A stretch of DNA of 52,457 nucleotides from Actinomycetes bacterium (GTDB lineage Bacteria; Actinomycetota; Acidimicrobiia; Acidimicrobiales; RAAP-2): the NCBI GenBank assembly GCA_021793515.1, contig JAJYSP010000020.1:1-52457 (forward strand). The letters run 5' to 3'. The translations under genes were made by a program, and so were the position numbers. The notes under the pieces are model-generated. The model worked only from the letters and a program-made list of their open reading frames with translations. It was not told the origin of the DNA and did no database searches. Below are positions 37,866 through 52,373 of the stretch, piece after piece; the first letter of the stretch is position 1; each line of letters starts with the position of its first letter.

Positions 37866-38489
37866 CTAATAGGCGCGCATGACCGCAATCACACGACCGA
37901 AAATCGCCACGTCTGCGGAGTCGAATTCCATCGGTTCCATCGATGGATTTTCTGGCTTTAACACAACACGGGCGCCCTGGGGGAAGAAGCGCTTAACCGT
38001 TGCCTCGCCTTCGGGCAACCCGGCGACCACGATCTCACCGGTCTCGGCGGTGGCCTGGCGATTCACGACGAGCAGATCGCCGGGCATGATTCCCGCACCG
38101 ATCATTGATTCGCCCCGAACCTGGAGGACGAAGCTGTCACCGCGTCCGGCGAGTTGCGCGGGCACCGTCATCATCTCGTGGAGACTTTCGGTGGCGAGCA
38201 CGCCGGTTCCGGCAGCCACGTCGCCGACGAAGGGGATGCTTCGCACCGAGGCGTCCGGTGTCATCGAATCAGCGTCCAGGCGTACTGTCAGCGTCCGGGG
38301 TTGCTGGGGATTCTTTGCGATATAGCCCGCGTCGCGCAGCACCGTGATGTGGTTCGCGACCGTCGCTGGTGACTTCAACCCCACGTGGTCGCCGATCTCA
38401 CGGATTGTGGGGGGGAAGTTCCGTTCGCGTTGGCAGGCGATGATGAACTCGAGGATCTGACGGCGCATGGGGGTGAGGACCTCAGCCAT
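37866..38489 (-). CDS. lexA: SOS repressor LexA
   Basis: LexA represses DNA-damage genes and cleaves itself when RecA filaments form. The 207 residues have an N-terminal winged helix-turn-helix (TIREIGDHVGLKSPATVANH, about 28-47), the cleavage site Ala93-Gly94 in GDVAAGTG, the nucleophile Ser128 in RGESMIGAG and the general-base Lys166 in ATVKRF. I choose ATG at 38489 rather than an upstream frame extension because AAAGGAG lies just before it on the minus strand. The promoter carries two SOS boxes, so it is autoregulated. It stands apart from the LysM gene and nrdR, its usual neighbours. Confidence 0.97.
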   Translation of the reverse strand: MAEVLTPMRRQILEFIIACQRERNFPPTIREIGDHVGLKSPATVANHITVLRDAGYIAKNPQQPRTLTVRLDADSMTPDASVRSIPFVGDVAAGTGVLATESLHEMMTVPAQLAGRGDSFVLQVRGESMIGAGIMPGDLLVVNRQATAETGEIVVAGLPEGEATVKRFFPQGARVVLKPENPSMEPMEFDSADVAIFGRVIAVMRAY

Positions 38490-38506: not shown

Positions 38507-38561
38507 CGAACAACTGTTCGTATCGTAGCGAATCCGTCGACGAGAATCAAACACCTGTTCG
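38507..38561 (-). promoter_or_regulatory. lexA promoter with two SOS boxes
   Basis: On the minus strand a -35 TTGATT (38545-38550) and a -10 TACGAT (38522-38527) are 17 bases apart. Two LexA boxes flank them: a perfect CGAAC-N4-GTTCG at 38507-38520, just downstream of the start point, and CAAAC-N4-GTTCG on the plus strand at 38548-38561, overlapping the -35 with one mismatch. The sites match the Gram-positive SOS consensus GAAC-N4-GTTC. Confidence 0.85.
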
Positions 38562-38746
38562 TACGACACTTCCGAATGTTCTTCGTGGAAACGTTGGTTG
38601 GGTGACCCGATTCACATTCCGTCGTACTGCTACTGTGCTGCGATGGCCAAGGTGGCCAGTACGAATCCGCTGAGGTGACTCGGGGTGTCCAGTATGTGAC
38701 GCGCCCGTGTGCCTGGGGGAGTTATTACACAGTTGAGGAGGACGAG

Positions 38747-39928
38747 TTGATTAAGCCTCGTTTTAACAAGACGGTGGCGGCGGTTACGACCAGTGCCCTG
38801 CTGTTGATGGCGGTGCCGGCTGTCGGCATCGCGTCAACCTCGGGGGCTGCGGGTAAGCCGACCTACGTCATCGGATATCAAGGACCGCTCTCGGGTGGGA
38901 ACCAGCAGCTCGGCTTGAACATGGTGTTCGCGGTCCAGCTGGCAATCAACCAGGCGAACGCGTCGGGGAAGCTTCCCTTCAAATTGAAGATTGCGACCTA
39001 CGATGACCAGGGAGACCCGACCATCGCACCGACTCAGGCGCAAGCCGCCATCGCGAACAAGAACCTGGTCGCAGTCGTTGGACCGGCGTTCTCGGGTGCG
39101 ACAGCAGCCTCTGAGCCCTTCTACCACAAGTACCACGTTGCAACGGTGAGTCCTTCGGCGACGAACCCGAAGTTGGCGACCAACCACTGGAACAACTTCT
39201 TCCGTGTGGTTGCTGACGATAACGTTCAGGGTCCTGCTGACGCTAACTACGTGGTCAAGAAGCTGAAGAAGAACAAGGTTTACGTCGTCAACGACGGTAC
39301 AGCCTACGGTTCGGGTGTGGCTTCGGCCTTCGCGTCGCAGGCGACCAAGGACGGTGCGACGGTGACCCCGGCGACTGTTCCTGGAACCTCCCAGTGCCAG
39401 AACGGTACTGCGTCTTCGACCGAGTACACCTCGGCGGCGGCACAGGTCGTGGCGAGCGGTGCGAACGCCATGTTCTACGGCGGGTACTACTGCGACCTTG
39501 GTCTGTTCCTCGGCCAGCTGCAGTCGGCCGGGTACACGGGCATCGTGATGTCTGACGACGGTGCACTGTCACCGGCGTTGATTCAGAACACGACCCCCGC
39601 GTCGGCCGCGAACGGCGTCTACCTGACGTGCGCGTGCTCAAGCTCCACGAGCCCGGCGTTCAACCGTCAGTACCAGGCCCTGGCGCACTTCAGCGCCGCC
39701 AACGCGACCTACGCGCCCGAGTCCTACGACGCGACGAACGCGATCATCGCGGCGATGAAGAAGCTGAAGAAGATCACCCGCGCGGGCATCGTTGCACAGT
39801 TGCACAAGTTGGTCATGAAGGGTATGACCAAGTTGATTCGCTTCCAGCCCAACGGCAACATCGCGGGTTCGGCGATCTACGTGAACCAGGTCAAGAACGG
39901 AAAGATCGTTCAGATCGGTCTTGAGTAA
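38747..39928 (+). CDS. livK: Branched-chain amino acid-type ABC transporter, substrate-binding protein
   Basis: This is the extracytoplasmic solute receptor of the following permease. The 393-residue product begins with a Sec signal peptide (basic KPRFNK, hydrophobic AVTTSALLLMAVPAVGIA, cleavage near residue 30). A Peripla_BP_6 type I fold follows (YVIGYQGPLSGGNQQLG, VGPAFSGATAASEPFYHKY, SYDATNAIIAAM). The TTG at 38747 has a strong GAGGAGG at 38735-38741. No lipobox cysteine is seen, so anchoring is unclear. The substrate (Leu/Ile/Val, amides or others) cannot be told from sequence. A strong terminator follows, probably allowing more receptor than permease. Confidence 0.92.
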   Translation: MIKPRFNKTVAAVTTSALLLMAVPAVGIASTSGAAGKPTYVIGYQGPLSGGNQQLGLNMVFAVQLAINQANASGKLPFKLKIATYDDQGDPTIAPTQAQAAIANKNLVAVVGPAFSGATAASEPFYHKYHVATVSPSATNPKLATNHWNNFFRVVADDNVQGPADANYVVKKLKKNKVYVVNDGTAYGSGVASAFASQATKDGATVTPATVPGTSQCQNGTASSTEYTSAAAQVVASGANAMFYGGYYCDLGLFLGQLQSAGYTGIVMSDDGALSPALIQNTTPASAANGVYLTCACSSSTSPAFNRQYQALAHFSAANATYAPESYDATNAIIAAMKKLKKITRAGIVAQLHKLVMKGMTKLIRFQPNGNIAGSAIYVNQVKNGKIVQIGLE

Positions 39929-39944
39929 TCACTGAAGTTGTTTG

Positions 39945-39984
39945 AACGGAAGGGCCGGGGGTTTTCCCCCGGCCCTTCCGTTTT
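39945..39984 (+). terminator. Intrinsic terminator between livK and livH
   Basis: A perfect 17-bp stem (39945-39961 with 39966-39982) and a TTTT loop are followed by a short T-run. It lies in the 92-base gap inside the liv operon. It would reduce transcription of the membrane and ATPase genes relative to livK unless a second promoter exists; TTGATT at 39983 is only a weak candidate. Confidence 0.9.
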
Positions 39985-40020
39985 GATTACACTTTCGTCG
40001 AACCGTTCTAGGGGGCACTG

Positions 40021-40983
40021 TTGGGAGCATTCGGGCACTACCTCACGGGGCACTTCGCCACGCTTCGTCTTGAGTTCTGGGCGCTGTTCGTCGGTGGCCT
40101 CGCCAATGGTGTTCTCTACGGCATGGTGGCGGTCGGTTACACGCTCGTGTACGGCGTTCTTCGCCTCATCAACTTCGCCCACTCGGAGATTTTCATGTCG
40201 GGCGGATTCGCCGGCTACTTCGTCATGAAGTCGATGGTGGGTAACGCCGTCCCGTCGGGCATCGCGTCGGTCGGGCTCATCGTGCTCGGGATCATCGTTG
40301 GCGGCGTCGTCGGTGCCGTGATGGCCACGCTGGTCGAACGCGTCGCGTATCGGCCGTTACGGCGACGACGAGCGCCCGCACTGGCGTACCTCATTAGCGC
40401 GATCGGTGCGTCTTACTTCCTCTACAACATGGCGGGTAAGGAGTTTGGCCGGGTGCCGATCTCGATGCCCCAGCCCTACATCAACCACCCGATCTTCCAC
40501 ATCTTCGGCGCCCCGGTCCAGATGTACTACGTCATTATCCTCCTCGCCGGTGCAGTCATGTTCCTCACGCTGGACCGGATCGTGGCGAAGACCAAGCTCG
40601 GTCGCAGTATCCGGGCTGTCGCCCAGGACGCCGAGACCGCGTCGCTCATGGGTGTCAACATCGACCGAACGATCGTGCTCACCTTCATCGTCGGCGGAGC
40701 ACTCGGTGGCGCCGCCGGTTTCCTCTTTGGTATGGGCACCGGTGTATCGAACACGATGGGCTTCGTCCCGGCCCTGAAGGCCTTCACCGCGGCCGTGCTG
40801 GGTGGCATCGGGAACCTCCGCGGCGCGATGATCGGCGGATTTCTACTCGGCGTCGTCGAGAGCCTCTCGGTCGTCTTTGTTCAGGCCGCCTACATGGACG
40901 TGGTGGCTTTCGGGATCTTGGTCGCGGTCCTGCTCTTCCGCCCGACCGGCATCCTCGGTGAGCGACTGGGGAGGTCAGCGTGA
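40021..40983 (+). CDS. livH: Branched-chain amino acid-type ABC transporter permease LivH
   Basis: The 320-residue integral membrane protein belongs to the LivH class. Its N-terminal GLANGVLYGMVAVGYTLVYGV and LINFAHSEIFMSGGF are typical, as is the late AVLGGIGNLRGAMIGGFLLG loop that contacts the ATPases. Eight or so membrane segments are apparent. The TTG at 40021 follows AGGGGG at 40010-40015. It overlaps livM by four bases, and the four membrane/ATPase genes form one translationally coupled unit. Confidence 0.93.
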   Translation: MGAFGHYLTGHFATLRLEFWALFVGGLANGVLYGMVAVGYTLVYGVLRLINFAHSEIFMSGGFAGYFVMKSMVGNAVPSGIASVGLIVLGIIVGGVVGAVMATLVERVAYRPLRRRRAPALAYLISAIGASYFLYNMAGKEFGRVPISMPQPYINHPIFHIFGAPVQMYYVIILLAGAVMFLTLDRIVAKTKLGRSIRAVAQDAETASLMGVNIDRTIVLTFIVGGALGGAAGFLFGMGTGVSNTMGFVPALKAFTAAVLGGIGNLRGAMIGGFLLGVVESLSVVFVQAAYMDVVAFGILVAVLLFRPTGILGERLGRSA

Positions 40984-42323
40984 AGCGCGTCTTTGCCAAT
41001 GCGCACGTGAAGCGACTGTTCTCCGCGATCGCAGCCATGGCGGTGCTCGAGTTGATGACCGGGCCCCCGGGCAGCGCGCTGTCCCCGACGGCGGGCTTCA
41101 CCGGCTCCTTCGGCGAGGCCTCCTCGTTCTTCGGCCTCTTTCGAACACAGCGATGGGTTGTCTTCCTCTTTATTGCGCTAGTGATGTTCGCGATTTGGAC
41201 GACGTGGCTCACGTGGGGCGAACAAGTTCGGACCGCGACGTCGAAGGCCATGAGTGTTCCTCGTGCCGCCACGCACACACGCCCGGTTCGCTGGGGCATG
41301 GTCCTTGTCCTGCTCGTGGTCGCACTCTTGCTGCCGCGACTCATCACTGACCCGTTCTGGCAAGCTGCCATGGTCGAACAGATCGCGGTCTACGTGCTGC
41401 TGGCACTCGGTCTCAACGTCGTCGTCGGTTTCGCGGGTCTGTTGGACCTGGGGTTCGTGGCCTTCTACGCAATTGGTGCGTACACGACGGCATGGGTCAC
41501 CGGCGCGCTGCCGACGGCGGCACCGTTCGGGATCCACTTCAACAACTTCTACGCGATCCCCATCGCGATCGCGCTCGCGATGGGCGCCGGTATCATCCTC
41601 GGGGCGCCGACGCTGCGACTCCGTGGTGACTATCTGGCCATCGTGACGTTGGGTTTCGGTGAGATCATCACCATCTTCGCCAACAACCTGTACGGCATCA
41701 CGGGCGGCTCGCAGGGAACCAATACGATTCCGCACTTCTCGTTGCACGTGGGCCCGATCAAGTACCTCTGGGGTCTCACGCCGGTGCCCTATTACTACTT
41801 GACGATCGTGTTCGTCATCTTGTTCCTGATCGGGTTCAAGTTGCTGGAGCACTCGCGGGTCGGTCGTGCCTGGACCGCCATCCGCGAGGACGAGGTCGCC
41901 GCAGAATCGGTGGGCATCAACCCGCTCAAGTACAAGGTCATGGCGTTCGCGATCGGCGCCTCGACCGCGGGCTTCGCCGGTGTCGTCACCGCGAGTCAGT
42001 CGAACACCATCTTCCCGTCGAGCTTCACATTGCAGTTCTCAATCAACATCCTCGTGCTGGTGATTTTTGGTGGTATGGGCTCGATTACCGGCGTCGTGCT
42101 CGGGGCGATCGTCATTCAGACCGGCTCAATGTTCTTGCTGCACTCGCCGCCCGCGGGGTACCAACCACAGGACCTCTACATCTACCTGGGTGCGTTGCTC
42201 GTTGTAATGATGATTTTCCGCCCGGCCGGTCTTGTTCCGTCGCGTCGGCGTCACCGCGAGATCGGGCTCGCCGAGAAGGGCGAGGGCCATATGAACGAAG
42301 TATTGACGGGAGACACGCCGTGA
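40980..42323 (+). CDS. livM: Branched-chain amino acid-type ABC transporter permease LivM
   Basis: The 447-residue second permease pairs with LivH. About residues 1-125 form an N-terminal extension with two to three extra hydrophobic segments. The conserved core follows: YVLLALGLNVVVGFAGLLDL, VAFYAIGAYTTAW, LRLRGDYLAIVTLGFGEI, RVGRAWTAIREDEVAAESVG and FGGMGSITGVVLGAIV. The extension resembles the longer E. coli LivM layout. The GTG start and the stop both overlap their neighbours by four bases. Confidence 0.93.
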   Translation: MKRVFANAHVKRLFSAIAAMAVLELMTGPPGSALSPTAGFTGSFGEASSFFGLFRTQRWVVFLFIALVMFAIWTTWLTWGEQVRTATSKAMSVPRAATHTRPVRWGMVLVLLVVALLLPRLITDPFWQAAMVEQIAVYVLLALGLNVVVGFAGLLDLGFVAFYAIGAYTTAWVTGALPTAAPFGIHFNNFYAIPIAIALAMGAGIILGAPTLRLRGDYLAIVTLGFGEIITIFANNLYGITGGSQGTNTIPHFSLHVGPIKYLWGLTPVPYYYLTIVFVILFLIGFKLLEHSRVGRAWTAIREDEVAAESVGINPLKYKVMAFAIGASTAGFAGVVTASQSNTIFPSSFTLQFSINILVLVIFGGMGSITGVVLGAIVIQTGSMFLLHSPPAGYQPQDLYIYLGALLVVMMIFRPAGLVPSRRRHREIGLAEKGEGHMNEVLTGDTP

Positions 42324-43126
42324 GCGACAAGATCTTCGACGTCGACCACGTGACGCTTCGTTTCGGTGGCGTGGTCTCTCTCAACGACGTGACACTGCAC
42401 CAAGAACGCGGTGAGATCCTGGCCGTCATCGGACCGAATGGTGCCGGCAAGACCTCGCTGTTCAACTCCCTGACGGGCGTCTATCAGCCCCAGGAGGGAA
42501 CGATCACCTTCATGGGTAAAGACGCCAAGCCCATGAACGTGATCGGCAAGAAGCCGCACCGCGTGAGCGCGGCAGGCGTTGCCCGGACATTCCAAGCATC
42601 GCGCATGTTCAGCGCGCTGACTGCCTTTGAGAACATCAAGATCGGCGCGGAGTCACACCGCGGGATTGGTGTGGTGGGCGCGATGTTGCGCGGACCCGCC
42701 ACCCGGCGTGACGAGAAGCTCTCGGACGAGCGCACGGTCGAGCTCCTCGACTTCGTGGGGCTGCGAGCCAAGGCGAACGTGATCTCCTCGTCGTTGTCGT
42801 ACGGGGATCGTCGACGTCTAGAGATCGCACGCGGGCTGGCGACGGGACCGCAAGTGCTCCTGCTCGACGAACCCGCCGCCGGGACCAACCCGTCGGAGAA
42901 GCTTGAGCTGACGACGCTCATTCGCAAGGTTCGCGACGAGATGGGTGTCTCTATCCTGTTGATCGAACACGACATGAAGCTCGTGATGTCGCTCGCCGAG
43001 CGGCTCTACGTGCTCAACTTCGGTAGCGTCATCGCCCAGGGCACCCCGGAAGAGATCCGGGCGAACGACCAGGTCATCGAGGCCTATCTCGGTTCGACCG
43101 CGACTGAGACGGGGGACCGATCGTGA
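42320..43126 (+). CDS. livG: Branched-chain amino acid-type ABC transporter ATPase LivG
   Basis: This is one of two cytoplasmic ATPases energising the LivHM permease. The 268 residues show Walker A GPNGAGKTSLFN (about 36-47), a GVARTFQASRMF Q-loop region, the signature SSLSYGDRRRLEIARGLA (about 157-174), Walker B VLLLDEPAAGTNP and the H-loop IEHDMKLVMSLAERLYVL. The C-terminal VIEAYLG is typical of LivG. GTG 42320 overlaps livM. Confidence 0.95.
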   Translation: MSDKIFDVDHVTLRFGGVVSLNDVTLHQERGEILAVIGPNGAGKTSLFNSLTGVYQPQEGTITFMGKDAKPMNVIGKKPHRVSAAGVARTFQASRMFSALTAFENIKIGAESHRGIGVVGAMLRGPATRRDEKLSDERTVELLDFVGLRAKANVISSSLSYGDRRRLEIARGLATGPQVLLLDEPAAGTNPSEKLELTTLIRKVRDEMGVSILLIEHDMKLVMSLAERLYVLNFGSVIAQGTPEEIRANDQVIEAYLGSTATETGDRS

Positions 43127-43836
43127 TGCTCGAGGTACACGATGCGGTGGTTCGCTACGGCGCGATCACCGCGCTACACGGTATTTCCTTCGAAGTGAAC
43201 CAGGGCGAGATCGTTACGCTGCTGGGTGCCAACGGGGCGGGCAAGACGACGACGCTTCGAATGCTCTCTGGTCTGCACGCGCCCCAGAGTGGCCGGATCA
43301 TGTTCGAGGGGCAGGACGTCACCACGACCAAAGCCCACATGTTCACGACGCTCGGCATCGGTCACGTTCCCGAGGGCCGGCGGATTTTTCCCCAGATGAC
43401 CGTGGAGGAGAATCTCGAGATTGGCGCCTTCAGACGGCGTGGCTCCTACACCGAAGACATGGAGCGGATGTACGAGACGTTCCCCATCTTGAAGGAGCGT
43501 CGCAAGCAGATCGGTGGGAACCTGTCGGGCGGGGAACAGCAGATGCTTGCCATCGGGCGAGCGCTCATGGGCCAGCCTCGACTACTCCTGCTCGACGAAC
43601 CGTCGATGGGACTCGCGCCGATGATTGTCGACACAATCTTTCGAATCATCGGTGAGATCCGCGACAGCGGTACGACCGTGCTGGTGGTCGAGCAGAACGC
43701 GGCCCAAGCGCTGCGACTGGCCGATCGCGGCTACGTGATGGAGAACGGCAAGATCGTGTTCGGGGACACCGCGTCGAATCTGTTGACCGATGCACGGGTC
43801 CGCGCGGTCTACCTCGGCGAGAGCGTCGAGTCCTAG
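43123..43836 (+). CDS. livF: Branched-chain amino acid-type ABC transporter ATPase LivF
   Basis: This is the second ATPase of the transporter. The 237 residues contain Walker A LGANGAGKTTTLRMLSG (about 36-52), the GIGHVPEGRRIFPQMTVEENL Q-loop motif region, the signature LSGGEQQMLAIGRALM (about 139-154), Walker B LLLLDEPSMGLAP and the H-loop-like VVEQNAAQAL, where LivF proteins carry Gln instead of His. GTG 43123 overlaps livG by four bases, like the other junctions; the next codon is ATG. It ends the operon. Confidence 0.95.
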   Translation: MMLEVHDAVVRYGAITALHGISFEVNQGEIVTLLGANGAGKTTTLRMLSGLHAPQSGRIMFEGQDVTTTKAHMFTTLGIGHVPEGRRIFPQMTVEENLEIGAFRRRGSYTEDMERMYETFPILKERRKQIGGNLSGGEQQMLAIGRALMGQPRLLLLDEPSMGLAPMIVDTIFRIIGEIRDSGTTVLVVEQNAAQALRLADRGYVMENGKIVFGDTASNLLTDARVRAVYLGESVES

Positions 43837-43848
43837 CTCACGGCTTTT

Positions 43849-43872
43849 CAGGGCCCGACGAACCTCGTGGGT
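43849..43872 (+). terminator. Possible weak terminator hairpin after livF
   Basis: GGGCCC-G-ACGA (43849-43859) can pair with TCGTGGGTCC (43863-43872) through one bulge and one wobble, with a 3-base loop. No T-run follows, so termination strength is doubtful. Confidence 0.3.
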
Positions 43873-43963
43873 CCAATTGGCGAGGACCAGAACGACCGCG
43901 TGGTATTTCGTGGCCGGTCTCGGAACGTCTGGTGCGACTATTGAGGATGAAACGTGCGTGAAG

Positions 43964-44011
43964 CTGACACGAGTGACTCGGCCGCGAATATACTTACTTA
44001 TCAACAAGTAA
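43964..44011 (+). promoter_or_regulatory. MFS exporter promoter with candidate MarR operator
   Basis: CTGACA (43964-43969) and TATACT (43989-43994) form a likely sigma70 promoter with a long 19-base spacer. Directly downstream is an inverted repeat, TTACTT (43994-43999), six bases, AAGTAA (44006-44011), which covers the expected start point near 44001. An AT-rich palindrome of this size is typical for MarR-family binding, and a marR gene follows the exporter. Confidence 0.55.
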
Positions 44012-44025
44012 CTATCTAGTCGCGA

Positions 44026-45798
44026 ATGGACCGGTCGATGGCTCTTAAGCACGCTCACCCTGAACGCTACAAGTGGATCGCGCTCACCAACACCACGTTG
44101 GGGATCTTCATGGCCACGATCAACGGTTCGATCATCTTGATCTCGCTGCCGGCGATCTTCCGCGGCGTCGGGATCAACCCCTTGTCACCGGGCAACGTCG
44201 GCTACCTCTTGTGGCTCCTTCAGGGTTATCTCCTGGTCACGGCCGTGTTGGTGATCAGTCTCGGGCGACTCGGTGACATCAAGGGGCGAGTACGGATCTA
44301 TAACCTGGGTTTCGCGGTGTTCTCGGTCGCCTCGATCCTGCTGGCACTTGATCCATTCAGCCACGGGGCGGGCGCGATGTGGTTGGTGATGTGGCGACTC
44401 GTGCAGGGGGTCGGTGGCGCCATGTTGTTCGCCAACTCGAGCGCGATCATCGTGGACGCCTTCCCGCCGGACCAGCGGGGTTTCGCGATGGGCATCAACC
44501 AGGTCGCGGCGATCGGCGGCTCGTTCGTGGGTCTCATCCTCGGTGGCCTGCTCTCCATCGGCGACTGGCGACTCGTCTTCTGGGTCTCGGTGCCCGTGGG
44601 CATCTTCGGCACCATCTGGGGCTACGTGAGCCTTCGTGACAACGGTGAGCGGGCGAACGCCACGATCGACTGGTGGGGCAACGCCACCTTCGCAATTGGT
44701 CTGACCTCATTGCTCGCGGCGATCGTCTACGGCATCCAGCCATACGGTACGAGCTCCATGGGGTGGACCTCACCGCGAGTGTTGGCCGCGTTCATTGTCG
44801 GCGTGCTCTTCCTCGTGGTCTTCCTCTTCATCGAGATGCGTGTGGAGTCGCCGATGTTCAACCTCCGGCTGTTCAAGATACGTGCGTTCTTCACCGGCAG
44901 CGTCGCCGGACTCCTCTCGGCGATAGCCCGAGGGGGCCTGCAGTTCATGCTCATTATCTGGCTTCAGGGGATCTGGTTGCCGCTGCACGGCTACAGTTAC
45001 GCCTCGACGCCGCTGTGGGCGGGCATCTACCTGCTGCCCCTAACACTCGGTTTCCTCGTCGCCGGACCCGTTTCGGGCTATCTCTCGGACCGTCACGGGG
45101 CTCGGATCCTGTCTACGACCGGTCTACTGCTGTTCGCATTCAGCTTCATCGGACTCCTGATGCTGCCTACGAACTTCCACTACCTCGACTTCGCGTTGCT
45201 CGTGGCGCTCAACGGCTTGGGTGGTGGGATGTTCTCCGCGCCTAACTCGACGGCGATCATGAACAGTGTGGCGGCCAATGAGCGTGGTGGCGCGGCGGGC
45301 ATCCAGGCCGCGTTCATGAACTCGGGCATGGTGCTGTCGATCGGCGTGTTCTTCTCACTGATGATCGTGGGGCTCACGAACACGTTGCCGACGGCGATGT
45401 ACAAGGGCTTGTCCGCACACGGCGTGGCCGCGGCCCAGGCACACGCCGTCGCGAACCTGCCCGCGGTCGGGAGCCTCTTCTCGTCGTTCCTCGGCTTTAA
45501 CCCGCTCAAGAGCCTGTTGGGTAGCCAGGCGTTCGCGCACGTGTCCAACGCCCAGTGGGTGACCCTGACGGGCAAGCACTTCTTCCCGAATCTCATCCTT
45601 TCGCCCTTCCACCACGGACTGATCATCGTCTTCACCATGGCCTTCGCGATGGCCATCATCGGGGCGGTCTTCTCCGCCCTGCGCGGCCGTCGCTACGTCC
45701 ACTCCGAGTTGTCGATCCAGCAGCACGTGGAGGACCTCACCATCGCCGGCGGCGCCGTGCCCGGTGAGGTCGCCCTCGAGAGTGACGTCGTGCGATGA
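44026..45798 (+). CDS. MFS exporter, DHA2 (14-helix) drug:proton antiporter family
   Basis: The 590-residue membrane protein fits the DHA2 family of multidrug exporters. It has about fourteen helices, motif A-like [16 protein letters not shown] after helix 2, [20 protein letters not shown] (motif B region) and a motif C-like [19 protein letters not shown]. There is an extended outer loop near 455-520 before the last helix. ATG 44026 has no clear ribosome binding site; ATG 44038 (MALKHAH) is an alternative. The stop overlaps the marR start, and a candidate operator lies in the promoter, which suggests an exporter induced when a ligand releases the repressor. The substrate is unknown. Confidence 0.9.
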
Positions 45799-46241
45799 AA
45801 CCACTCACCGGCGACGAAGACGGCGTCACCGTCGCGGCCAGGCTCAACCTGATAGTGGGCCGGCTGATGCGGACGATTCGCCAGCACGCCGCAGCTGGAC
45901 TTACGCCCTCCCAGCTCTCAGCGCTAGTCACGGTGGACGAGCGCGGTCCGCTACGCATCAGTGCGCTCGCGACCCAGGAGTCGTTGGGCGCACCCGCCGC
46001 GACCCGAGTCGTGGCCTCGCTCGAAGAGGCGGGTCTGGTCACACGGTCGTCAGACCCCGACGATAAGCGAGCGTCACTGATCACCTTGACCAAGGTGGGC
46101 AACGAGACGCTTAAGTCGCTGCGCAAGGAGCGCGCCACGGGCCTTGGTGCACAGCTCGATGCCTTGAGTGAATCAGAACGCCGACTCCTCGAACGCGCCC
46201 TGCCCGTCTTGGAGAAGATCTCGCACGACTGTTCGCAGTGA
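45795..46241 (+). CDS. MarR-family transcriptional regulator
   Basis: The 148-residue winged-helix dimeric regulator shows the MarR pattern. An N-terminal helix is followed by [12 protein letters not shown], the recognition region [28 protein letters not shown] (about 51-78) and the wing motif [13 protein letters not shown] with the conserved D-x-R. A C-terminal dimer helix ends the protein. ATG 45795 overlaps the exporter stop by four bases, so repressor and exporter are cotranscribed. The likely target is the inverted repeat at 43994-44011. Confidence 0.92.
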
Positions 46242-46286
46242 TCCCACCACCGACGGCGACCGTTGGGTCGCCGGAAAGGTGGAGTA

Positions 46287-47015
46287 ATGATCATCGAAGA
46301 ACAGCGAGAATTGGGCCAATGTTGGCGTGACGTCGCCGACGTGCTGGCGGCCGGTATCGACCGGGTGGTGCTGTACGGACCCCCGGGGACGGGCAAGACC
46401 TACGCGGCGTTGCACGCCGGCGTCGCGCACGGACCGGCCGAACGGCTGGTGTGCACCGAGGACCTGACGACCGGCGAGATCACCGGCACCTGGATGCCGG
46501 CGGGAGATGGGACCTGGCGGTGGCGTGAGGGGCCGGCGATCCGGGCCTGGCACGCCCACGGGGGCCGCGGCGGCCGGCTCGTGGTCGACGAGGTCGACCG
46601 GGCTTCGGGTGACGCGTTGAGCACGCTGCTGGCGATGACCGACTCGGCTGACTCCGCGCGGTGGCGTAATCCCGAGACGGGGGAGTGGGTGACACCCGGT
46701 CCCGAGTTCTCGGTCGTCATGACGACCAACGTCGAGGATCTCGACGAACTGCCCATCGCGTTGCGTGATCGATTCGCGGTGCGCCTGCGAGTCGACCGCC
46801 CGCACCTCGCAGCCGTCGAGCGTCTGAGTGAGGACCTTCGAGGACCGGCGCTCGCGGGATCGCTCGGCGACGAGGCTCGTCGGATATCACTGCGCAGCTT
46901 CTACGCGTTCGACCAGCTTCGGCGTCACTACGGCGCATCTCGTGCCGCCGACTTGGTCTTTGGCGAAGCCAAGGCGGACGGGGTGCTCGACGCCCTGCGG
47001 GTTGCGGCGCTGTGA
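46287..47015 (+). CDS. MoxR-like AAA+ ATPase
   Basis: The 242-residue protein is a single AAA+ module of the MoxR/CbbQ kind. It has Walker A GPPGTGKT (31-38), Walker B LVVDEVDRAS (98-107), sensor 1 MTTNVEDL (146-153) and an arginine-finger region ALRDRFAVRL (158-167). MoxR ATPases act as chaperones that remodel or activate enzymes, working with VWA-domain partners. I choose ATG 46287 with GGTGGAG at 46278-46284 over a longer frame. The stop overlaps the start of the VWA gene by four bases, so the two proteins form an obligate pair. The client is unknown. Confidence 0.9.
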   Translation: MIIEEQRELGQCWRDVADVLAAGIDRVVLYGPPGTGKTYAALHAGVAHGPAERLVCTEDLTTGEITGTWMPAGDGTWRWREGPAIRAWHAHGGRGGRLVVDEVDRASGDALSTLLAMTDSADSARWRNPETGEWVTPGPEFSVVMTTNVEDLDELPIALRDRFAVRLRVDRPHLAAVERLSEDLRGPALAGSLGDEARRISLRSFYAFDQLRRHYGASRAADLVFGEAKADGVLDALRVAAL

Positions 47016-48379
47016 GTAACGTCGACGTGTTCCCCGAGCTCGTGACTGGTCGTGATGACGGCTTTCGCAGCGAGTCGTGGCGTATTGAGCGAGGCTCCTC
47101 GTGGCGCGGTGACGCGAGTTGCGACCTCAGTCATCGCGTGCTGCGCGTGCCGTGGGAGCGGGACGAACGGGCGCGTGTCGTGCGGGCCCATGAGCTGATA
47201 CATGTGCGAGTAAGCCCCCACCAACACGAGTGGGTCGACCAGGTATCGGAGATTCCGGCGCGTGCCCTTGAGTGCGCAGAAGAGATGCGCGTGAACACGA
47301 TCCTTCTGCGGCTCGGCTTTGACGGCGCCCAACTGCGCGATGGGAGCGAGCGGCTGGGGGGCGAGCGACTCGCGCGCAGTGGCAATTGGCCCGAAGCCGC
47401 GTGTTTCCTGTTGGCGGTCCTCGGAACCGGCGCCGAACGCGAGTTCATGGCCGGGATACGTCGAGGTGACCCCACGTGGGTCGCGCCACTTCGTGCCGTG
47501 GCCTCTCGCGCGAAGTCGCTCGTCCGCGACGCCGGCGCTGATGAATTGGGTGCGACGGTGGCCCGCGTCGACGGGGTGCCGCGGGGTTACGGTGAGTACA
47601 CGATCCCACTGGCCCGACTGGTGACGTCGGTCAGTGACGCACGACTGCCGACCGACGCCGAATCGCTTCGTCGGTTCAAGCGCTCACTCCAGCCCGGCGC
47701 CCGACGACCACCGAGTGGGCACTTCGCCGACCTCCACTTCGCACAGTCGTCCTTGGCGGCTCGGGCGCGAACGGGTGGCGTGCGCCACCGCCGAGCCGCG
47801 GTCAGTGGCGTCGTCCTGGCTTATCCCGGACGCTTGCTCACCGACGAGCAGCGACGAGCCTTTGCGGCGTCGTCGCGCCGGCACGGTGGGGTGGTGGTGA
47901 TCGACCAATCCGGCTCGATGGACCTCGACCGCGAAACGCTCACCGCACTCGCTCATCGCGCCCCCGACTCGCTCGTCGTTGGCTACAGCCATCGGCCCGG
48001 CGATCGCGGCGCGACGCCGAACGCGTGGGTGCTCGCCGATCGAGGTGGTGTCGTCAGCGAGGTGCCGAGCGGCAACGTCGGTAACGGCGTGGACGGGCCG
48101 GTCCTGCGCTGGGCGATCGCCCACCGTAGAACCGGCGAGCCGATCGTGTGGGTGAGCGATGGTCAGGTCACCGACTCCGCTGACCACCCCGACGTCGATC
48201 TCGCGCGCGAGTGTGCCCGACTGGTGCGGTCGCACCACATCGTCATGGTACGCACGCTGGATGAGGTGGCGAACGCCCTACGTACGTGCCGCCGCCGTCG
48301 CCCGTGGGGAGATTTCGGACGCGTCGGCCGTGCGATCAGGGAGATCGGTGACGAATCGGGACGATTAACCAGTTGGTGA
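47012..48379 (+). CDS. VWA-domain protein with N-terminal HExxH motif, partner of the MoxR-like ATPase
   Basis: The 455-residue protein joins two features. In the N-terminal half HELIH (60-64) matches the zinc-metallopeptidase motif HExxH. Further His residues (70, 72) and a helix with LECAEEMRVN (87-95) follow and could give the third ligand. The C-terminal third is a VWA-like domain with the MIDAS motif DQSGS (298-302) and WVSDGQVTD (380-388). It is overlapped by the ATPase gene. The layout resembles proteins with a putative metallopeptidase plus VWA-like domain (DUF2201 type, from memory) and MoxR-VWA pairs such as CbbQ/CbbO and RavA/ViaA. Whether it cleaves anything is unknown. Confidence 0.8.
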   Translation: MSNVDVFPELVTGRDDGFRSESWRIERGSSWRGDASCDLSHRVLRVPWERDERARVVRAHELIHVRVSPHQHEWVDQVSEIPARALECAEEMRVNTILLRLGFDGAQLRDGSERLGGERLARSGNWPEAACFLLAVLGTGAEREFMAGIRRGDPTWVAPLRAVASRAKSLVRDAGADELGATVARVDGVPRGYGEYTIPLARLVTSVSDARLPTDAESLRRFKRSLQPGARRPPSGHFADLHFAQSSLAARARTGGVRHRRAAVSGVVLAYPGRLLTDEQRRAFAASSRRHGGVVVIDQSGSMDLDRETLTALAHRAPDSLVVGYSHRPGDRGATPNAWVLADRGGVVSEVPSGNVGNGVDGPVLRWAIAHRRTGEPIVWVSDGQVTDSADHPDVDLARECARLVRSHHIVMVRTLDEVANALRTCRRRRPWGDFGRVGRAIREIGDESGRLTSW

Positions 48380-48387
48380 GCGGGGCC

Positions 48388-48433
48388 TTGAAAGACGAAC
48401 ACCTGTTCGCTAGGATACGAACAGGTGTTCGTC
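48388..48433 (+). promoter_or_regulatory. LexA-controlled promoter with two perfect SOS boxes
   Basis: TTGAAA (48388-48393) and TAGGAT (48411-48416) are 17 bases apart. One perfect CGAAC-N4-GTTCG box (48396-48409) fills the spacer; a second (48418-48431) covers the expected start point. The box centres are 22 bases, about two helical turns, apart. Bases 48394-48409 and 48418-48433 form a perfect 16-bp inverted repeat. This is a textbook repressed promoter for the LysM gene. Confidence 0.92.
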
Positions 48434-48448
48434 TAGAAGGAGGCAACG

Positions 48449-48874
48449 GTGTCCGCACTTGCATTGACTGAGTACGACTTCCGCCCATCCGTCACCCCCC
48501 ACTTGCGACTGGTCGGCAAGACGAGTCTGTCGTGGCGAACCGGCGTCAACGTCACGACTCGGCGCCTCGCGCGGGCTCGCCGGCGCCGACAGCGTCAGGC
48601 TGCGCTGCTCGGCGTCGCAATGGCGGTCGGGCTGGTGCTGCTCGCCTGGCCCGGCCCCGCCTTCGGCGGCACAACGGGCACGGGTCTACCCACCGACCTG
48701 GCCACCGGCACGACCCTCGCCTCGGGCATGGTCTACGTCGTTCAGGCGGGGGACTCCGTTAGCTCGATAGCGCGTCTCGCCAATCCACTCGATCCCGCGC
48801 TAGCTCGCCGTGCGATCGTCAGGGAGCTGCACTCGAGTGTCGTGGTCCCGGGTGAGCACGTCCTTATACCATAA
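48449..48874 (+). CDS. SOS-induced LysM membrane protein (probable cell-division suppressor)
   Basis: The 141-residue product has a basic N-terminal cytoplasmic part ending in RRRRQRQ, one membrane helix (about 51-68) and an outer C-terminal LysM domain (YVVQAGDSVSSIARLA to VVPGEHVLIP, about 96-141) that should bind peptidoglycan. Start GTG 48449 has AAGGAGG at 48437-48443. It lies directly behind two SOS boxes. In Mycobacterium (Rv2719c), Corynebacterium (DivS) and Bacillus (YneA), small LexA-controlled membrane proteins beside lexA block division after DNA damage. The same role is inferred here. nrdR follows after 31 bases. Confidence 0.88.
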   Translation: MSALALTEYDFRPSVTPHLRLVGKTSLSWRTGVNVTTRRLARARRRRQRQAALLGVAMAVGLVLLAWPGPAFGGTTGTGLPTDLATGTTLASGMVYVVQAGDSVSSIARLANPLDPALARRAIVRELHSSVVVPGEHVLIP

Positions 48875-48905: not shown

Positions 48906-49376
48906 ATGCGATGCCCCTTCTGCTCGGCTGATGACGACCGCGTCGTCGATTCGCGCCTAGCCGAAGACGGCGTGGCGATTCGCCGTCGTCGCGAGTGCGC
49001 CGGTTGTGGTCAGCGCTATACGACGTTCGAGCGGATCGAGGAGGTCGGCCTCGTAGTCGTCAAACGTTCGGGCGAACGTGAACCCTTCGATCAGTCCAAG
49101 ATCCTCATGGGAATCCGTGCCGCCTGCAAGAACCGACCGGTCGACGAGCGCGTCATGGTGGGGATCGCCGCGAGCGTGGAGGAATCGATGCGTCTCTTGA
49201 ACCGCGACGTGTCGAGCGAAGAGATCGGACGTGCGACCCTCGACGCGATTCGACCCGTCGACGACGTCGCCTACGTTCGATTCGCGTCGGTCTACAAGGG
49301 TTTCGAGGGCACTGAGGACTTCGCACGCGAGATCGGAATGCTCGTCAAGTCGACCGCGCCAAAACTGCGGAGCTGA
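48906..49376 (+). CDS. nrdR: Transcriptional repressor NrdR
   Basis: NrdR senses ATP/dATP and represses ribonucleotide reductase genes. The 156 residues begin with a zinc ribbon (MRCPFC and CAGCGQRYTTFE, about 1-39). The ATP-cone domain follows (VVKRSGEREPFDQSKILMGI, about 50-69) with a normal C-terminus (DVAYVRFASVYKGF). ATG 48906 is chosen because MRCPFC is the invariant N-terminus; longer in-frame sequence overlaps the LysM gene. It is a conserved neighbour of lexA and its LysM partner in actinobacteria. Confidence 0.97.
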   Translation: MRCPFCSADDDRVVDSRLAEDGVAIRRRRECAGCGQRYTTFERIEEVGLVVVKRSGEREPFDQSKILMGIRAACKNRPVDERVMVGIAASVEESMRLLNRDVSSEEIGRATLDAIRPVDDVAYVRFASVYKGFEGTEDFAREIGMLVKSTAPKLRS

Positions 49377-49377
49377 C

Positions 49378-50085
49378 ATGCGCAACCTGCGCCTTCAACC
49401 CCAGTGTGCGCTCGCGGTCTACGCGCACCCCGATGACGCGGACGTCGCGGCGGGTGGGGTCCTCGCCCAGTGGGCGAGTGAAGGTTGTGCCGTTCACATG
49501 GTGGTCGTCTGTGATGGTTCGAAGGGTTCGCACTCGGGTCAGACCGACGCCAAATCCCTCCGGGGTGTCCGGCGCTCGGAGTTCGAGTCGGCCGCCGCGC
49601 TCTTGGGTGTGTCGTCCGTGGTCGGACTCGACCACCCCGACGGTGACGTCGTGAACGACACCGTCTTGCGCGGTGAGTTGGTCGGACTCATCCGGTCACT
49701 CCGACCCGACGTCGTCGTCGGTCACGACCCGACCGCCACGTTCTTCGCGGGGGTCTACGTCAACCACCACGACCATCGTGAGACGGGCTGGGCGCTGCTC
49801 GACGCCGTGGCCCCGGCCGCCGCGATGCCGCTCTACTTTCCCGAATACGGTGCGGCGCACCAGGTGCGTCACCTGTTGCTGAGCGGCACCCAGGAACCGG
49901 ACGTGGTCGTTGACATCTCGCGCACGATCGACCGCAAGGCCGCGGCGGTGCTCGCGCACGCCTCCCAGCTCGGTGGGGACGCCGAGGAGATCCGCGAGGT
50001 CGTCTACGGTCGGGCGGAGCAGGCGGGCCGACCAGTCGGTGTCGCCTACGGCGAGGCGTTCCGCAGTGTCCAGCTCACCAGCTGA
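49378..50085 (+). CDS. PIG-L/LmbE-family zinc deacetylase
   Basis: The 235-residue protein has the family metal motif AHPDDAD (about 16-22), the late YVNHHDHRETG histidine motif (about 131-141) and the Rossmann-like pattern in between. Members deacetylate GlcNAc-type substrates, including mycothiol precursors (MshB) and conjugates (Mca), teicoplanin and PI-glycans. The substrate here is unclear, since the MshB/Mca-specific length and motifs are not obvious. ATG 49378 follows the nrdR stop by one base. The end overlaps dinB by 20 bases, so it may be expressed with the SOS cluster. Confidence 0.88.
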   Translation: MRNLRLQPQCALAVYAHPDDADVAAGGVLAQWASEGCAVHMVVVCDGSKGSHSGQTDAKSLRGVRRSEFESAAALLGVSSVVGLDHPDGDVVNDTVLRGELVGLIRSLRPDVVVGHDPTATFFAGVYVNHHDHRETGWALLDAVAPAAAMPLYFPEYGAAHQVRHLLLSGTQEPDVVVDISRTIDRKAAAVLAHASQLGGDAEEIREVVYGRAEQAGRPVGVAYGEAFRSVQLTS

Positions 50086-51409
50086 CCAGCCGACGGTAGA
50101 CGAGGCGCCCGTCCTGCACGTCGACCTCGACGCCTTCTTCACGTCGGTGGAGATTCTCGATGATCCGTCCCTCGTGGGACGAGCGATCGCGGTCGGTGGC
50201 GGCGGCGATCGCGGCGTGATCGCGAGCGCGAGCTACGAGGCGCGGCGCTTTGGAATTCGAAGTGGGATGCCGAGTGTGCTGGCGCGACGGCGATGCCCGG
50301 GCCTGGTGATCTTGCCCGGTCGCTTCGACCGGTACGAGGAGTACTCGCGACGGTTCCGTGAGATCGTCACCGACCTCACGCCCGCCGTCGAAGCTATTGG
50401 GCTCGACGAGTTGTTCGCTGACCTGCGCGGACTGCGACGATTGGGGACACGACCCGTGGAAGCTGCGTGGGCGCTGCGTGGGCGCATCGAGGACGAGTTG
50501 CACCTCAACTGCGGCGTCGGACTCGCACGCAACAAGCTTTTCGCGAAGCTCGCCTCAAAGCGGTCAAAGCCCGCCGTAGTGGGCGGACGCATCACGCCGG
50601 GGCCCGGGGTGGTCTGGGTCGACCGTGCGACCGAACAGCGGTGGCTGGCCGAGCTACCGCTTGGGGCGCTCTGGGGCGTCGGGCCGGCCACCACCGCGAA
50701 GCTCAATCGACTTGGTCTTCGCTGGGTACGCGACCTCGCGCCGCTCGACGAAGCCACGCTCGCGGTCCACGTCGGGCCCGCGATGGCGGCGACGCTGGTG
50801 GCCTACGCCCGGGGTGACGACCGGCGCGAGGTCGTCGTCGACCGTGGTACGAAGTCACTCGGCCACGACGAGACGTTCGCTCGATCGCTACGAACCGTTC
50901 AGGAGGTTCAGGCCGCGGCGCGTGCGCACGCGGCGGTGGTGGCGCGGGCCTTACGAAGCAACCACCAGCTTGCACGAACCATCACCCTCGTCGTGCGCTT
51001 CGATGACCTGCACTCCGTGTCGCGTGCGCAGACCCTGTCCTTTGGCGTCGACGACGACGCGGCGATCGCGTTGATCGGCGCGGCGCTCGCCGAGACGGTC
51101 GAGTTGAGCCAGTCGGTGCGGTTGGTGGGGCTCTACGCCTCGTCCTTCATCGAACGAAGCGCGCACGAGATCCAGCTCACGCTGCCCGTTGCGGTCGAGT
51201 CGTCCGACTCTCGCGACGGGGTCGAACAGGCGTCGCGGGCGCGCCAGATCGACTTCGAGGGCCTGCGCGACGCGATCGACGAGGTTCGTCAGCGTTTCGG
51301 TCGGTCCGCCCTTGGAACCGTCGCCGAGCTCGACGAGGATGGCTTGCACGTGGCGACCCAGCGGGGTCGCCACGCCTTCGGCCCCGACTCGTCACCGAAC
51401 TCGCCGTGA
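50066..51409 (+). CDS. dinB: DNA polymerase IV (Y family)
   Basis: DinB is an error-prone translesion polymerase. The 447 residues show the palm motif HVDLDAFFTSVE (18-29), ASYEARRFGIRSGMP, a GLDELFADL segment where most DinB have S-x-D-E (Gly replaces Ser, Asp and Glu kept), VGLARNKLFAKLASKRSKP and the helix-hairpin-helix LWGVGPATTAKLNRLGL. A little-finger domain and an unconserved C-terminal tail follow. GTG 50066 is the last usable start before the palm motif and overlaps the deacetylase gene by 20 bases. No SOS box lies nearby, so any LexA control would come by readthrough from 48388. Confidence 0.93.
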   Translation: MSSSPADQPTVDEAPVLHVDLDAFFTSVEILDDPSLVGRAIAVGGGGDRGVIASASYEARRFGIRSGMPSVLARRRCPGLVILPGRFDRYEEYSRRFREIVTDLTPAVEAIGLDELFADLRGLRRLGTRPVEAAWALRGRIEDELHLNCGVGLARNKLFAKLASKRSKPAVVGGRITPGPGVVWVDRATEQRWLAELPLGALWGVGPATTAKLNRLGLRWVRDLAPLDEATLAVHVGPAMAATLVAYARGDDRREVVVDRGTKSLGHDETFARSLRTVQEVQAAARAHAAVVARALRSNHQLARTITLVVRFDDLHSVSRAQTLSFGVDDDAAIALIGAALAETVELSQSVRLVGLYASSFIERSAHEIQLTLPVAVESSDSRDGVEQASRARQIDFEGLRDAIDEVRQRFGRSALGTVAELDEDGLHVATQRGRHAFGPDSSPNSP

Positions 51410-51860: not shown

Positions 51861-52373
51861 ATGGCCGCCATTATCGCGAGAGGCAAGGGCACCTGGCGCC
51901 TGGGCGTGTTCGCAGGGAAGAACCCAGCCACTGGAAAAATCAAGTACGACTGGAAGACGGTAAAGGCATCGACCAAAGTTGAGGCCCGGAGACTTGGTGT
52001 CCAGTTCGAGGCAGAAGCCCGTGAGTGGAACAAGCGTAATTCCCCGAGCTTCGACAAAGGGACCCTCACCTTGACTGAACTCTGGGACGAGTACACGAAA
52101 TTGGTCCATTTCAACACGGGCGGCCGGAAAAAATCTGACGAGACCCGTGCGGAATACGAAAGAAACTGGAGGCTCCACCTCGGCCCTGCACTGGGCAACT
52201 ACCGGTCGAAGGACATCACGAAGCACGTGGTTGACACGATGGTGGACGACCTGAGTCGGAAACCCCAGTCCGGCAATGGGCGGGAGCACCTCGTACTTGG
52301 CCCGTGGACCATCGACAAGGTCGTCAAACTCGGCTCCTCGCTGTTTCGTGTGGGTAAGTCCGTCAACCCCTGA
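51861..52373 (+). pseudogene. Tyrosine integrase, truncated before the catalytic domain
   Basis: The frame encodes 170 residues. It has an N-terminal arm-binding-like domain (GTWRLGVFAGKNPATGK, about 9-25) and a SAM-like core-binding domain (TLTELWDEYTKL, ETRAEYERNWRLHLGPALGN, about 68-110). The frame ends just after TIDKVVKLG where a full integrase would continue into its catalytic domain with the R-H-R-Y residues. AGAGGGAG precedes the ATG at 51861. Base composition is visibly lower in GC than the neighbours, a sign of transfer. The last dozen residues look like insertion-sequence end sequence, so the gene seems to be interrupted. Confidence 0.8.

Follow-up and report, generated by a model that had tools for sequence, protein, structure and literature searches.

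A phage-related MoxR ATPase and VWA protein pair with a zincin-like site at an actinobacterial SOS locus

The subject of this report is a pair of overlapping genes, P0001 and P0002, in DNA of an Actinomycetes bacterium (order Acidimicrobiales, RAAP-2). They lie on contig JAJYSP010000020.1 of assembly GCA_021793515.1, of which positions 1 to 52,457 were analysed as one stretch (the window). The first gene encodes a MoxR-type ATPase. The second encodes a protein with a von Willebrand factor A (VWA) domain and its metal ion-dependent adhesion site (MIDAS), preceded by an N-terminal domain with a zincin-like HExxH site. The residues of this site are conserved together and lost together among bacterial and viral relatives.

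46287..47015, plus strand: P0001, NorQ-like MoxR AAA+ ATPase, 242 amino acids, ATG start at 46287, TGA end at 47015
47012..48379, plus strand: P0002, VWA protein with N-terminal zincin-like domain, 455 amino acids, GTG start, TGA end
47189..47203, plus strand: codons of H60-E-L-I-H64; HExxH intact in 71/90 homologues
47282..47284, plus strand: codon of E91, predicted third metal ligand; acid in 71/71 HExxH proteins and 0/19 degenerate ones
47903..47920, plus strand: MIDAS codons DQSGSM, residues 298-303; D298, S300 and S302 in 90/90
48158..48160, plus strand: codon of D383 in SDG (382-384); kept in 90/90

The frames agree with the sequence-only reading of this DNA, which had recognized a MoxR ATPase and a VWA partner overlapping by four bases: GTGA at 47012-47015 is shared by both. 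HELIH also falls where that reading had put it (60-64); of the VWA motifs, DQSGSM lies at 298-303 and SDG at 382-384. P0001 is a MoxR-type AAA+ protein of the NorQ/CbbQ/Midasin clade. It matches AAA_5 of Pfam (E 2.3e-16, 60.5 bits, cut-off 22) and carries GPPGTGKT as Walker A and LVVDEVDRA as Walker B motif. Its profile matches include Midasin (2.4e-47), CbbQ (9.5e-12), NorQ (1.2e-11) and, more weakly, Lon; rows 1-11 of its Foldseek search are all NorQ (best E 7.6e-15), and its PHROGs family is phrog_16448 (1.1e-30). The cobaltochelatase CobS model TIGR01650 (cut-off 558.55 bits) is not among its NCBIfam matches at E<=1, and CobT (PF06213) is matched in one of 198 genomes, below cut-off. Membership in the MoxR-vWA-beta-propeller ternary conflict system was considered and rejected: bpMoxR (PF20030) gives P0001 14.5 bits against a cut-off of 27.

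P0002 is a VWA protein of the co-chaperone type, with VWA fold, MIDAS and a gene adjoining that of the ATPase. It was aptly called poorly described, as Pfam and NCBIfam give no match at E<=1; its alignment, used as a profile query against PDB, likewise found 0 matches at E<=1. PHROGs assigns it to phrog_33218 (unknown function; 1.1e-26, residues 252-423). Because it is found in 29 of 100 genomes of the bacterial family, it is no chance open reading frame (ORF).

The HExxH site was followed through an alignment of 30 bacterial-labelled and 60 distinct viral homologues. The former remained from 34 loci of the bacterial search after removal of fragments L032-L034 and of duplicate L011 (contig of L004), and include a locus labelled Planctomycetaceae, L005. 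The latter remained from 78 viral loci after removal of those that were identical or shorter than 400 amino acids. The proposal of a metallopeptidase-like motif built into the VWA protein had been made to depend on conservation of the H and E residues, and the outcome favors it: HExxH is kept in 30/30 bacterial-labelled and 41/60 viral proteins, and the acid at position 91 is gone as well from all 19 proteins without it. In the intact proteins this acid is Glu in 68 cases and Asp in 3. Because, among the 60 positions conserved in at least 95% of intact proteins, only position 91 is wholly lost in the degenerate ones, E91 is likely the third metal ligand. Elsewhere the 19 degenerate homologues show partial retention (H64 5%, H60 16%, L108 21%, E61 26%, D110 37%, E90 53%), while D298, S300, S302 and D383 persist in all of them. 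Across the 24 rows of alignment A1, H60, E61, H64, E91, D298, S300, S302 and D383 are invariant.

Given joint loss with an intact VWA site, H60-E61-H64-E91 appears to act as one unit that degenerates together and leaves the VWA part in place. HExxH together with a third ligand, the combination that defines a zincin, thus seems to be present, its two elements being both co-conserved and co-lost. In a tree built without residues 1-139, HExxH and E91 need six changes each, and five of five independent pairs on starred branches agree (sign test 0.0625, the floor for five). Natural pseudo-zincins with the VWA metal site intact are L074-L076, L080, L084, L086, L090, L092, L093, L100, L101, L103, L105, L107-L109, L111, L112 and L114.

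The AlphaFold model of P0002 has a mean predicted local distance difference test score of 92. It places HELIH in helix 52-67 and, after three strands, E91 in helix 83-100 together with E87 and E90, so that the glutamate-bearing helix earlier suspected at 87-95 is present in the prediction. This order of helices and strands is the one expected of a zincin. The co-conserved zincin-like site is thus predicted on two helices of a confident model. A Foldseek search of PDB with whole P0002 returned the minigluzincin jannalysin twice, with E of 1.5 and 2.4, which is a lead only.

For the VWA part, VIA ranks the NorD VWA domain first (Z 9.6, root-mean-square deviation 3.4 over 134; Z 9.2, deviation 4.0 over 149), ahead of a row with Z 7.4; the VIA rows span the VWA part only and barely cover the N-domain. 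The best Foldseek match of P0002 in a viral structure library is A0A1B0XTW8 (E 2.1e-19). Because both partners point to NorQ-NorD independently, we take that system as guide to the mode of working. The same matches, best for both partners, also favor what we regard as the strongest rival to the protein-remodelling machine proposed below. The pair might be a metal-insertion or enzyme-activating chaperone like NorQD or CbbQO, where the zincin-like site would serve as metal donor, sensor or client grip and the client would be a metalloenzyme, for example ribonucleotide reductase; NorQD is described as driving metal insertion in a passage of PMC13036017. We hold this to be possible, though rather unlikely. 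Decay of the zincin-like site as a unit resembles that of an enzyme site, which speaks against a chaperone. NorD, moreover, is not known to have an HExxH domain and needs none.

DUF2201, suggested from sequence alone, was not supported as family for P0002. Neither PF13203 nor PF09967 matches it at E<=1, and PF13203 has no match in the genome. HHalign pairs the N-domain with the DUF2201 alignment at HExxH and a D..IN motif, not significantly (probability 0.5, P 0.12); only the VWA parts of the two align (P 8.5e-7).

On viral contigs, 194 pattern matches yielded 78 loci. The ATPase gene lies directly upstream of the VWA gene in 74 of them, and in the other four the partner ORF begins at the contig edge. 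We call these contigs phage because phage replication, WhiB and terminase families match across them. Matches of 20 cluster representatives include WhiB-like, primase/helicase, helicase-loader, replication-initiator, RecE and terminase proteins; for 71 more, RecT/Erf, exonuclease, methyltransferase and terminase are among the matched families listed (25 of 81). No ribonucleotide reductase gene stands beside the viral pairs among those same listed families, which again speaks against a chaperone for metalloenzymes. Within 8 kb of viral pairs, in 50 distinct groups, an annotated replication or recombination gene is found in 30, a WhiB-like gene in 18 and a terminase gene in 10. The terminase genes would suit a virion-maturation machine, as proposed in a passage of PMC7824862 for the MoxR-vWA-metallopeptidase pairs of jumbo phages, with the bacterial copy re-used for another purpose. 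This seems quite improbable to us in view of the 30 groups with replication or recombination genes. The related cyanophage pair described below adjoins gp46 and, in two regions, a sliding clamp, and the pair is conserved at the SOS locus of bacteria that make no virions with it.

In an unrooted tree of 88 pairs (L102 and L116 were omitted, their contigs being without ATPase), the 29 actinobacterial pairs fall into a single starred clade, which joins 15 viral rows with support 88. L005 groups with a viral row in a different clade. A planctomycete as second bacterial owner was considered and rejected: L005 (PBTE01000009.1) carries phage-type replication genes in three of the ten ORFs scanned (phrog_12644, replication initiator, helicase loader; the other seven gave none), and the contig was taken for phage DNA. 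By tblastn, no match was found for P0002 in named phages and plasmids, nor in phages for P0001 or a viral VWA homologue. A viral ATPase query did find Gordonia and Microbacterium phages and Actinomycetia phage DSL-LC01 at 27-31% identity (13 records), and another found Stenotrophomonas phage DLP6 and DSL-LC01. In three viral loci of one sequence group (L083, L085, L087), the 150 bp before the ATPase contain a perfect LexA-like palindrome, ACGAACGAAAGTTCGT.

Among bacteria the pair is narrowly placed. P0002 is present in 27/27 genomes of the window's genus (own included), in 2/2 of genus g18 and in 0/71 others of the family; in G072 and G092 its gene is split into two pieces that stand on different contigs, and one G092 piece has an in-frame TGA. 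Phylum-wide, six of 396 genomes match, all from the window's genus. A P0002 scan of GTDB contigs, limited in its reach to close relatives, yielded four loci, namely three actinobacterial metagenome-assembled genomes and L005. The surroundings of the pair in the window are as follows.

37866..38488, minus strand: lexA (PF00717 3.2e-29, PF01726 1.6e-16; start codon by eye)
38508..38519, no strand: LexA box A, GAACN4GTTC
38549..38560, no strand: LexA-like box A', AAACN4GTTC
46257..46267, plus strand: conserved upstream element CGACCGTTGGG; loose pattern in 28/29 upstream regions, the 29th without upstream sequence
48397..48408, no strand: LexA box B; two boxes here in 21/21 loci
48419..48430, no strand: LexA box C, like box B in front of the next gene downstream of the pair
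48449..48874, plus strand: LysM-like gene (name by eye), right flank, marker after the pair in 21/21
48906..51409, plus strand: NrdR-, PIG-L- and DinP-like genes (names by eye), markers in 21/21 with the pair and in 17/17 genomes without it

Boxes of the form CGAACN4GTTCG occur three times in the 52 kb (from 38507, 48396 and 48418), whereas 100 shuffles gave 0.06 on average. The locus was compared between the window and stretches from 20 relatives (19 from the genus, one from g18). Downstream of the pair, all 21 show two LexA boxes and then matches to the LysM-like, NrdR-, PIG-L- and DinP-like genes. On the left, lexA is divergent and directly against the ATPase gene in seven of the 20 relatives; five stretches do not cover it, and in the window and eight relatives transporter genes separate it from the pair. 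The window's interval (38600-46241) holds, by eye, branched-chain amino-acid ATP-binding cassette, major facilitator superfamily and MarR-like genes, with marker matches in eight of the 20 relatives. An integrase-like ORF (by eye) lies at 51861-52373, after the DinP-like gene and near the contig end. The pair had been thought to stand alone beside a LexA promoter. That promoter is real, but the pair belongs to a conserved SOS locus; in the window's species, the left side of this locus is interrupted.

Genomes without the pair reveal where it was inserted. We sampled one genome, at least 90% complete, from each of 17 of the 19 other genera in the family. In 16 of them lexA faces the same gene set with no pair between, and the contig of the 17th begins at the boxes (an isolated 34% VWA match that L162 has on the other strand was not counted). 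In 14 of the 17 genomes, the LysM-like gene was found as well. Box A' at lexA, followed by boxes B and C, is found in 16/16 empty-site genomes showing lexA. When the pair is present, A' or a like box stays on the lexA side (in the window and, by eye, in the seven adjacent cases) and B and C lie on the far side; the pair is therefore inserted between box A' and box B. Box A' was not accepted as an operator belonging to the pair, because it is also found at lexA in the 16 empty sites. Because of these empty sites, the presence of the pair in 2/21 genera and its wide viral spread, we suggest that it moved from phage to bacterium.

Several alternatives touch on this locus. The pair lies directly upstream of the LysM-like gene in 21/21 loci and could be an SOS-recovery protease, removing the neighboring LexA-controlled protein as a presumed division inhibitor. 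This is highly unlikely. The LysM-like gene exists in other genera without the pair, the viral pairs are left unexplained, and the LysM name was given by eye; beneath its two LexA boxes, this gene has no Pfam match at E<=0.01. Equally little probability is given to anti-phage defence or superinfection exclusion. Such a role would be in keeping with the viral kinship and with the MoxR-vWA cores of conflict systems, as treated in a passage of PMC7159879. It agrees poorly with genus-wide presence and the same right flank in each of the 21 loci compared, and no PADLOC model matches P0002 at E<=0.01, while P0001 gets only short P-loop matches. The NrdR-like gene two genes downstream of the pair could be cited in favor of a chaperone for ribonucleotide reductase; it is, however, also present in genomes without the pair.

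The upstream element, CGACCGTTGnG, sits 13-67 nt upstream of the ATPase start. The window's own genome has 28 matches of SGACCGTTGBG and 11 of the same pattern reversed, and the element is absent before viral ATPases save for one GACCATT-type match in 72. The CGACCGTTG element was rejected as mark of a damage regulon, its other sites being near mixed genes (names by eye).

A further relationship leads to T4-like cyanophages. In a search of phage records, the DLP6 'peptidase' has 463 matches at E<=1e-5, of which 42 cover at least 80% of its length; by name, the 463 include 365 Synechococcus, 61 Cyanophage and 24 Prochlorococcus. The 'cobS' of P-SSM2 matches 509 records at E<=1e-10 with the same tallies of 365, 61 and 24, tallies and not accession lists being compared. 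In 11/11 cultured-phage partners that were read, HE..H is followed by E[DE].R and a D.SGS motif. HHalign aligns the N-domain with eight of these 11 over 66 columns (P 6.7e-6, probability 85) and with the single partners of DLP6 (4.2e-4) and DSL-LC01 (1e-3); the best of 30 column-shuffled controls reached P 0.059 and a 'CobS' alignment P 0.74. The ATPases of the two pairs align with P 2.7e-21; for the VWA parts the alignment spans just 35 columns (P 2.4e-4). The N-domain is thus significantly related to that of the cyanophage 'peptidase' and taken as its homologue.

The four phage 'CobS' proteins examined score 64-95 bits against the cobaltochelatase cut-off of 558.55 (TIGR01650). CbbQ_C is above cut-off in both cyanophage 'CobS' scanned, falls slightly short of it in DLP6 and is absent from the matches listed for phage OC. 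In L204, L209 and other cyanophage records, a 'cobS' far below that cut-off co-occurs with the zincin-VWA 'peptidase' by record tallies. A passage of one review states that cyanophage cobS is not truly homologous to bacterial cobS, and ribonucleotide reductase and B12 are its published guess for the role of the gene (PMC5083919), which would suit a metal-inserting chaperone. Another paper tabulates cobS among the genes for vitamin B12 and calls what it does in the infected host unknown (PMC9983427). A search of the open-access literature, preprints excluded, found no paper joining cobS, MoxR and phage. In all eight regions read (seven cyanophages and Ochrobactrum phage OC) a gp46-type endonuclease or 'exonuclease' lies upstream of the phage pair, with zero to six small genes between. 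A sliding clamp lies downstream in two (S-RIM8, OC); the other stretches end sooner. Between 'peptidase' and 'cobS' of P-SSM2, the gene at L209:5187-5717, annotated as DNA binding protein, matches Pyr_excise (PF03013, 1.1e-14), by Pfam a pyrimidine-dimer glycosylase.

How might these observations be combined? We propose, tentatively, that the pair is a protein-remodelling machine, driven by ATP and bearing a zincin domain, which came from phage and serves DNA replication or repair. The phage gene pair would have been captured by an ancestor of these actinobacteria, would have come to lie between lexA and the next LexA-controlled gene and may there be induced in the SOS response. The NorQ-like ATPase ring and the NorD-like VWA co-chaperone would form one machine, in which ATP hydrolysis acts on the VWA part as in NorQ-NorD. 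A client would be held through the MIDAS site, remodelled and presented to the N-terminal HExxH...E/D zincin domain, and this domain, presumably with bound metal, would cut or hold it. We suggest that the clients are located on DNA or close to it while it is replicated, recombined or repaired, because such settings are common to the bacterial SOS locus, the cyanophage recombination and replication region and the actinophage-type replication modules.

Several points weigh against this proposal. Activity, metal and client of the pair are predictions, and its nearest characterised relatives insert metals or activate enzymes. Foldseek gives no clear zincin match for P0002, with no PDB match at E<=0.001, and the independent-pair test cannot pass below p 0.0625. 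The site is missing from 19/60 viral homologues and is thus dispensable to the machine. Where transporter genes intervene, as in the window and eight relatives, no LexA box lies close to the ATPase gene, and SOS induction is therefore not conserved. The unrooted tree alone gives no direction of transfer, and the phage neighborhood count (30/50) has no random baseline. On the cyanophage side, the N-domain alignment with the Sixama partner is not significant (P 0.096), and the regions of DLP6, DSL-LC01 and Sixama have no gp46 neighbor.

The proposed machine can be given a more specific form, speculative and in our estimate improbable. The pair could be the prokaryotic counterpart of Wss1/Spartan with Cdc48, in which an AAA+ motor and its zincin partner would remove or cleave proteins trapped on DNA, as in crosslinks or at blocked ends. 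It would be spread by large phages beside Rad50/Mre11-like nucleases and domesticated in the actinobacterial SOS locus, next to a translesion-type polymerase gene. If so, the cyanophage auxiliary metabolic gene 'cobS' would be half of a DNA-repair machine and not a B12 gene.

Viral kinship, the insertion site at the SOS locus and the cyanophage peptidase/cobS link had all been missed by the sequence-only reading. In the literature searched, no paper was found on the family, its third ligand, its place in the bacterial SOS locus or the cyanophage link. A phage MoxR-zincin-VWA pair has here become fixed in bacterial chromosomes, at a locus with understood regulation, and the pseudo-zincin clades provide ready-made natural controls. 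The question of cyanophage cobS function becomes testable; the gene travels with a zincin-VWA 'peptidase' in a recombination-nuclease neighborhood. Viral genes of this kind, to which vitamin B12 synthesis is often ascribed, may thus as a pair handle proteins during DNA replication or repair.

Taken together, the pair shares parts with several known systems. Proteins with DUF2201_N (PF13203) and a VWA-like part resemble P0002 in combining a zincin-like N-part with VWA; of 14 DUF2201 rows taken, four keep HExxH, as HExxHxxxxH. The T4-like cyanophage 'peptidase' is longer, with 700-800 amino acids and an extended middle, and its third ligand would be Asp (ED); the cyanophage 'cobS' ATPase has an N-terminal extension, unlike P0001. 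Wss1/Spartan with Cdc48/p97, described in part of PMC4559962 as minigluzincin-like proteases of DNA-protein crosslinks, are like the pair in joining a zincin and an AAA+ motor in a DNA-damage setting. They are without VWA and use a different AAA+ clade; the likeness is put forward as an analogy. NorQ-NorD and CbbQ-CbbO share with the pair a ring ATPase and VWA folds. In NorQ-NorD, as given in a passage of PMC13036017, the pore of the ring receives a VWA finger, and the NorD linker is twisted and stretched as ATP is hydrolysed; the client of both systems is known, and the task is metal insertion or Rubisco activation. A MoxR gene beside that of a vWA protein with an N-terminal metallopeptidase is already in print, for group 2.2 jumbo phages, in a passage of PMC7824862. 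By description, that pair (ASV44729.1, ASV44728.2) has the same order of parts as the one in the window. It was proposed to serve in virion assembly, whereas the family described here is found at an SOS locus of bacteria and, for the most part, in replication contexts.

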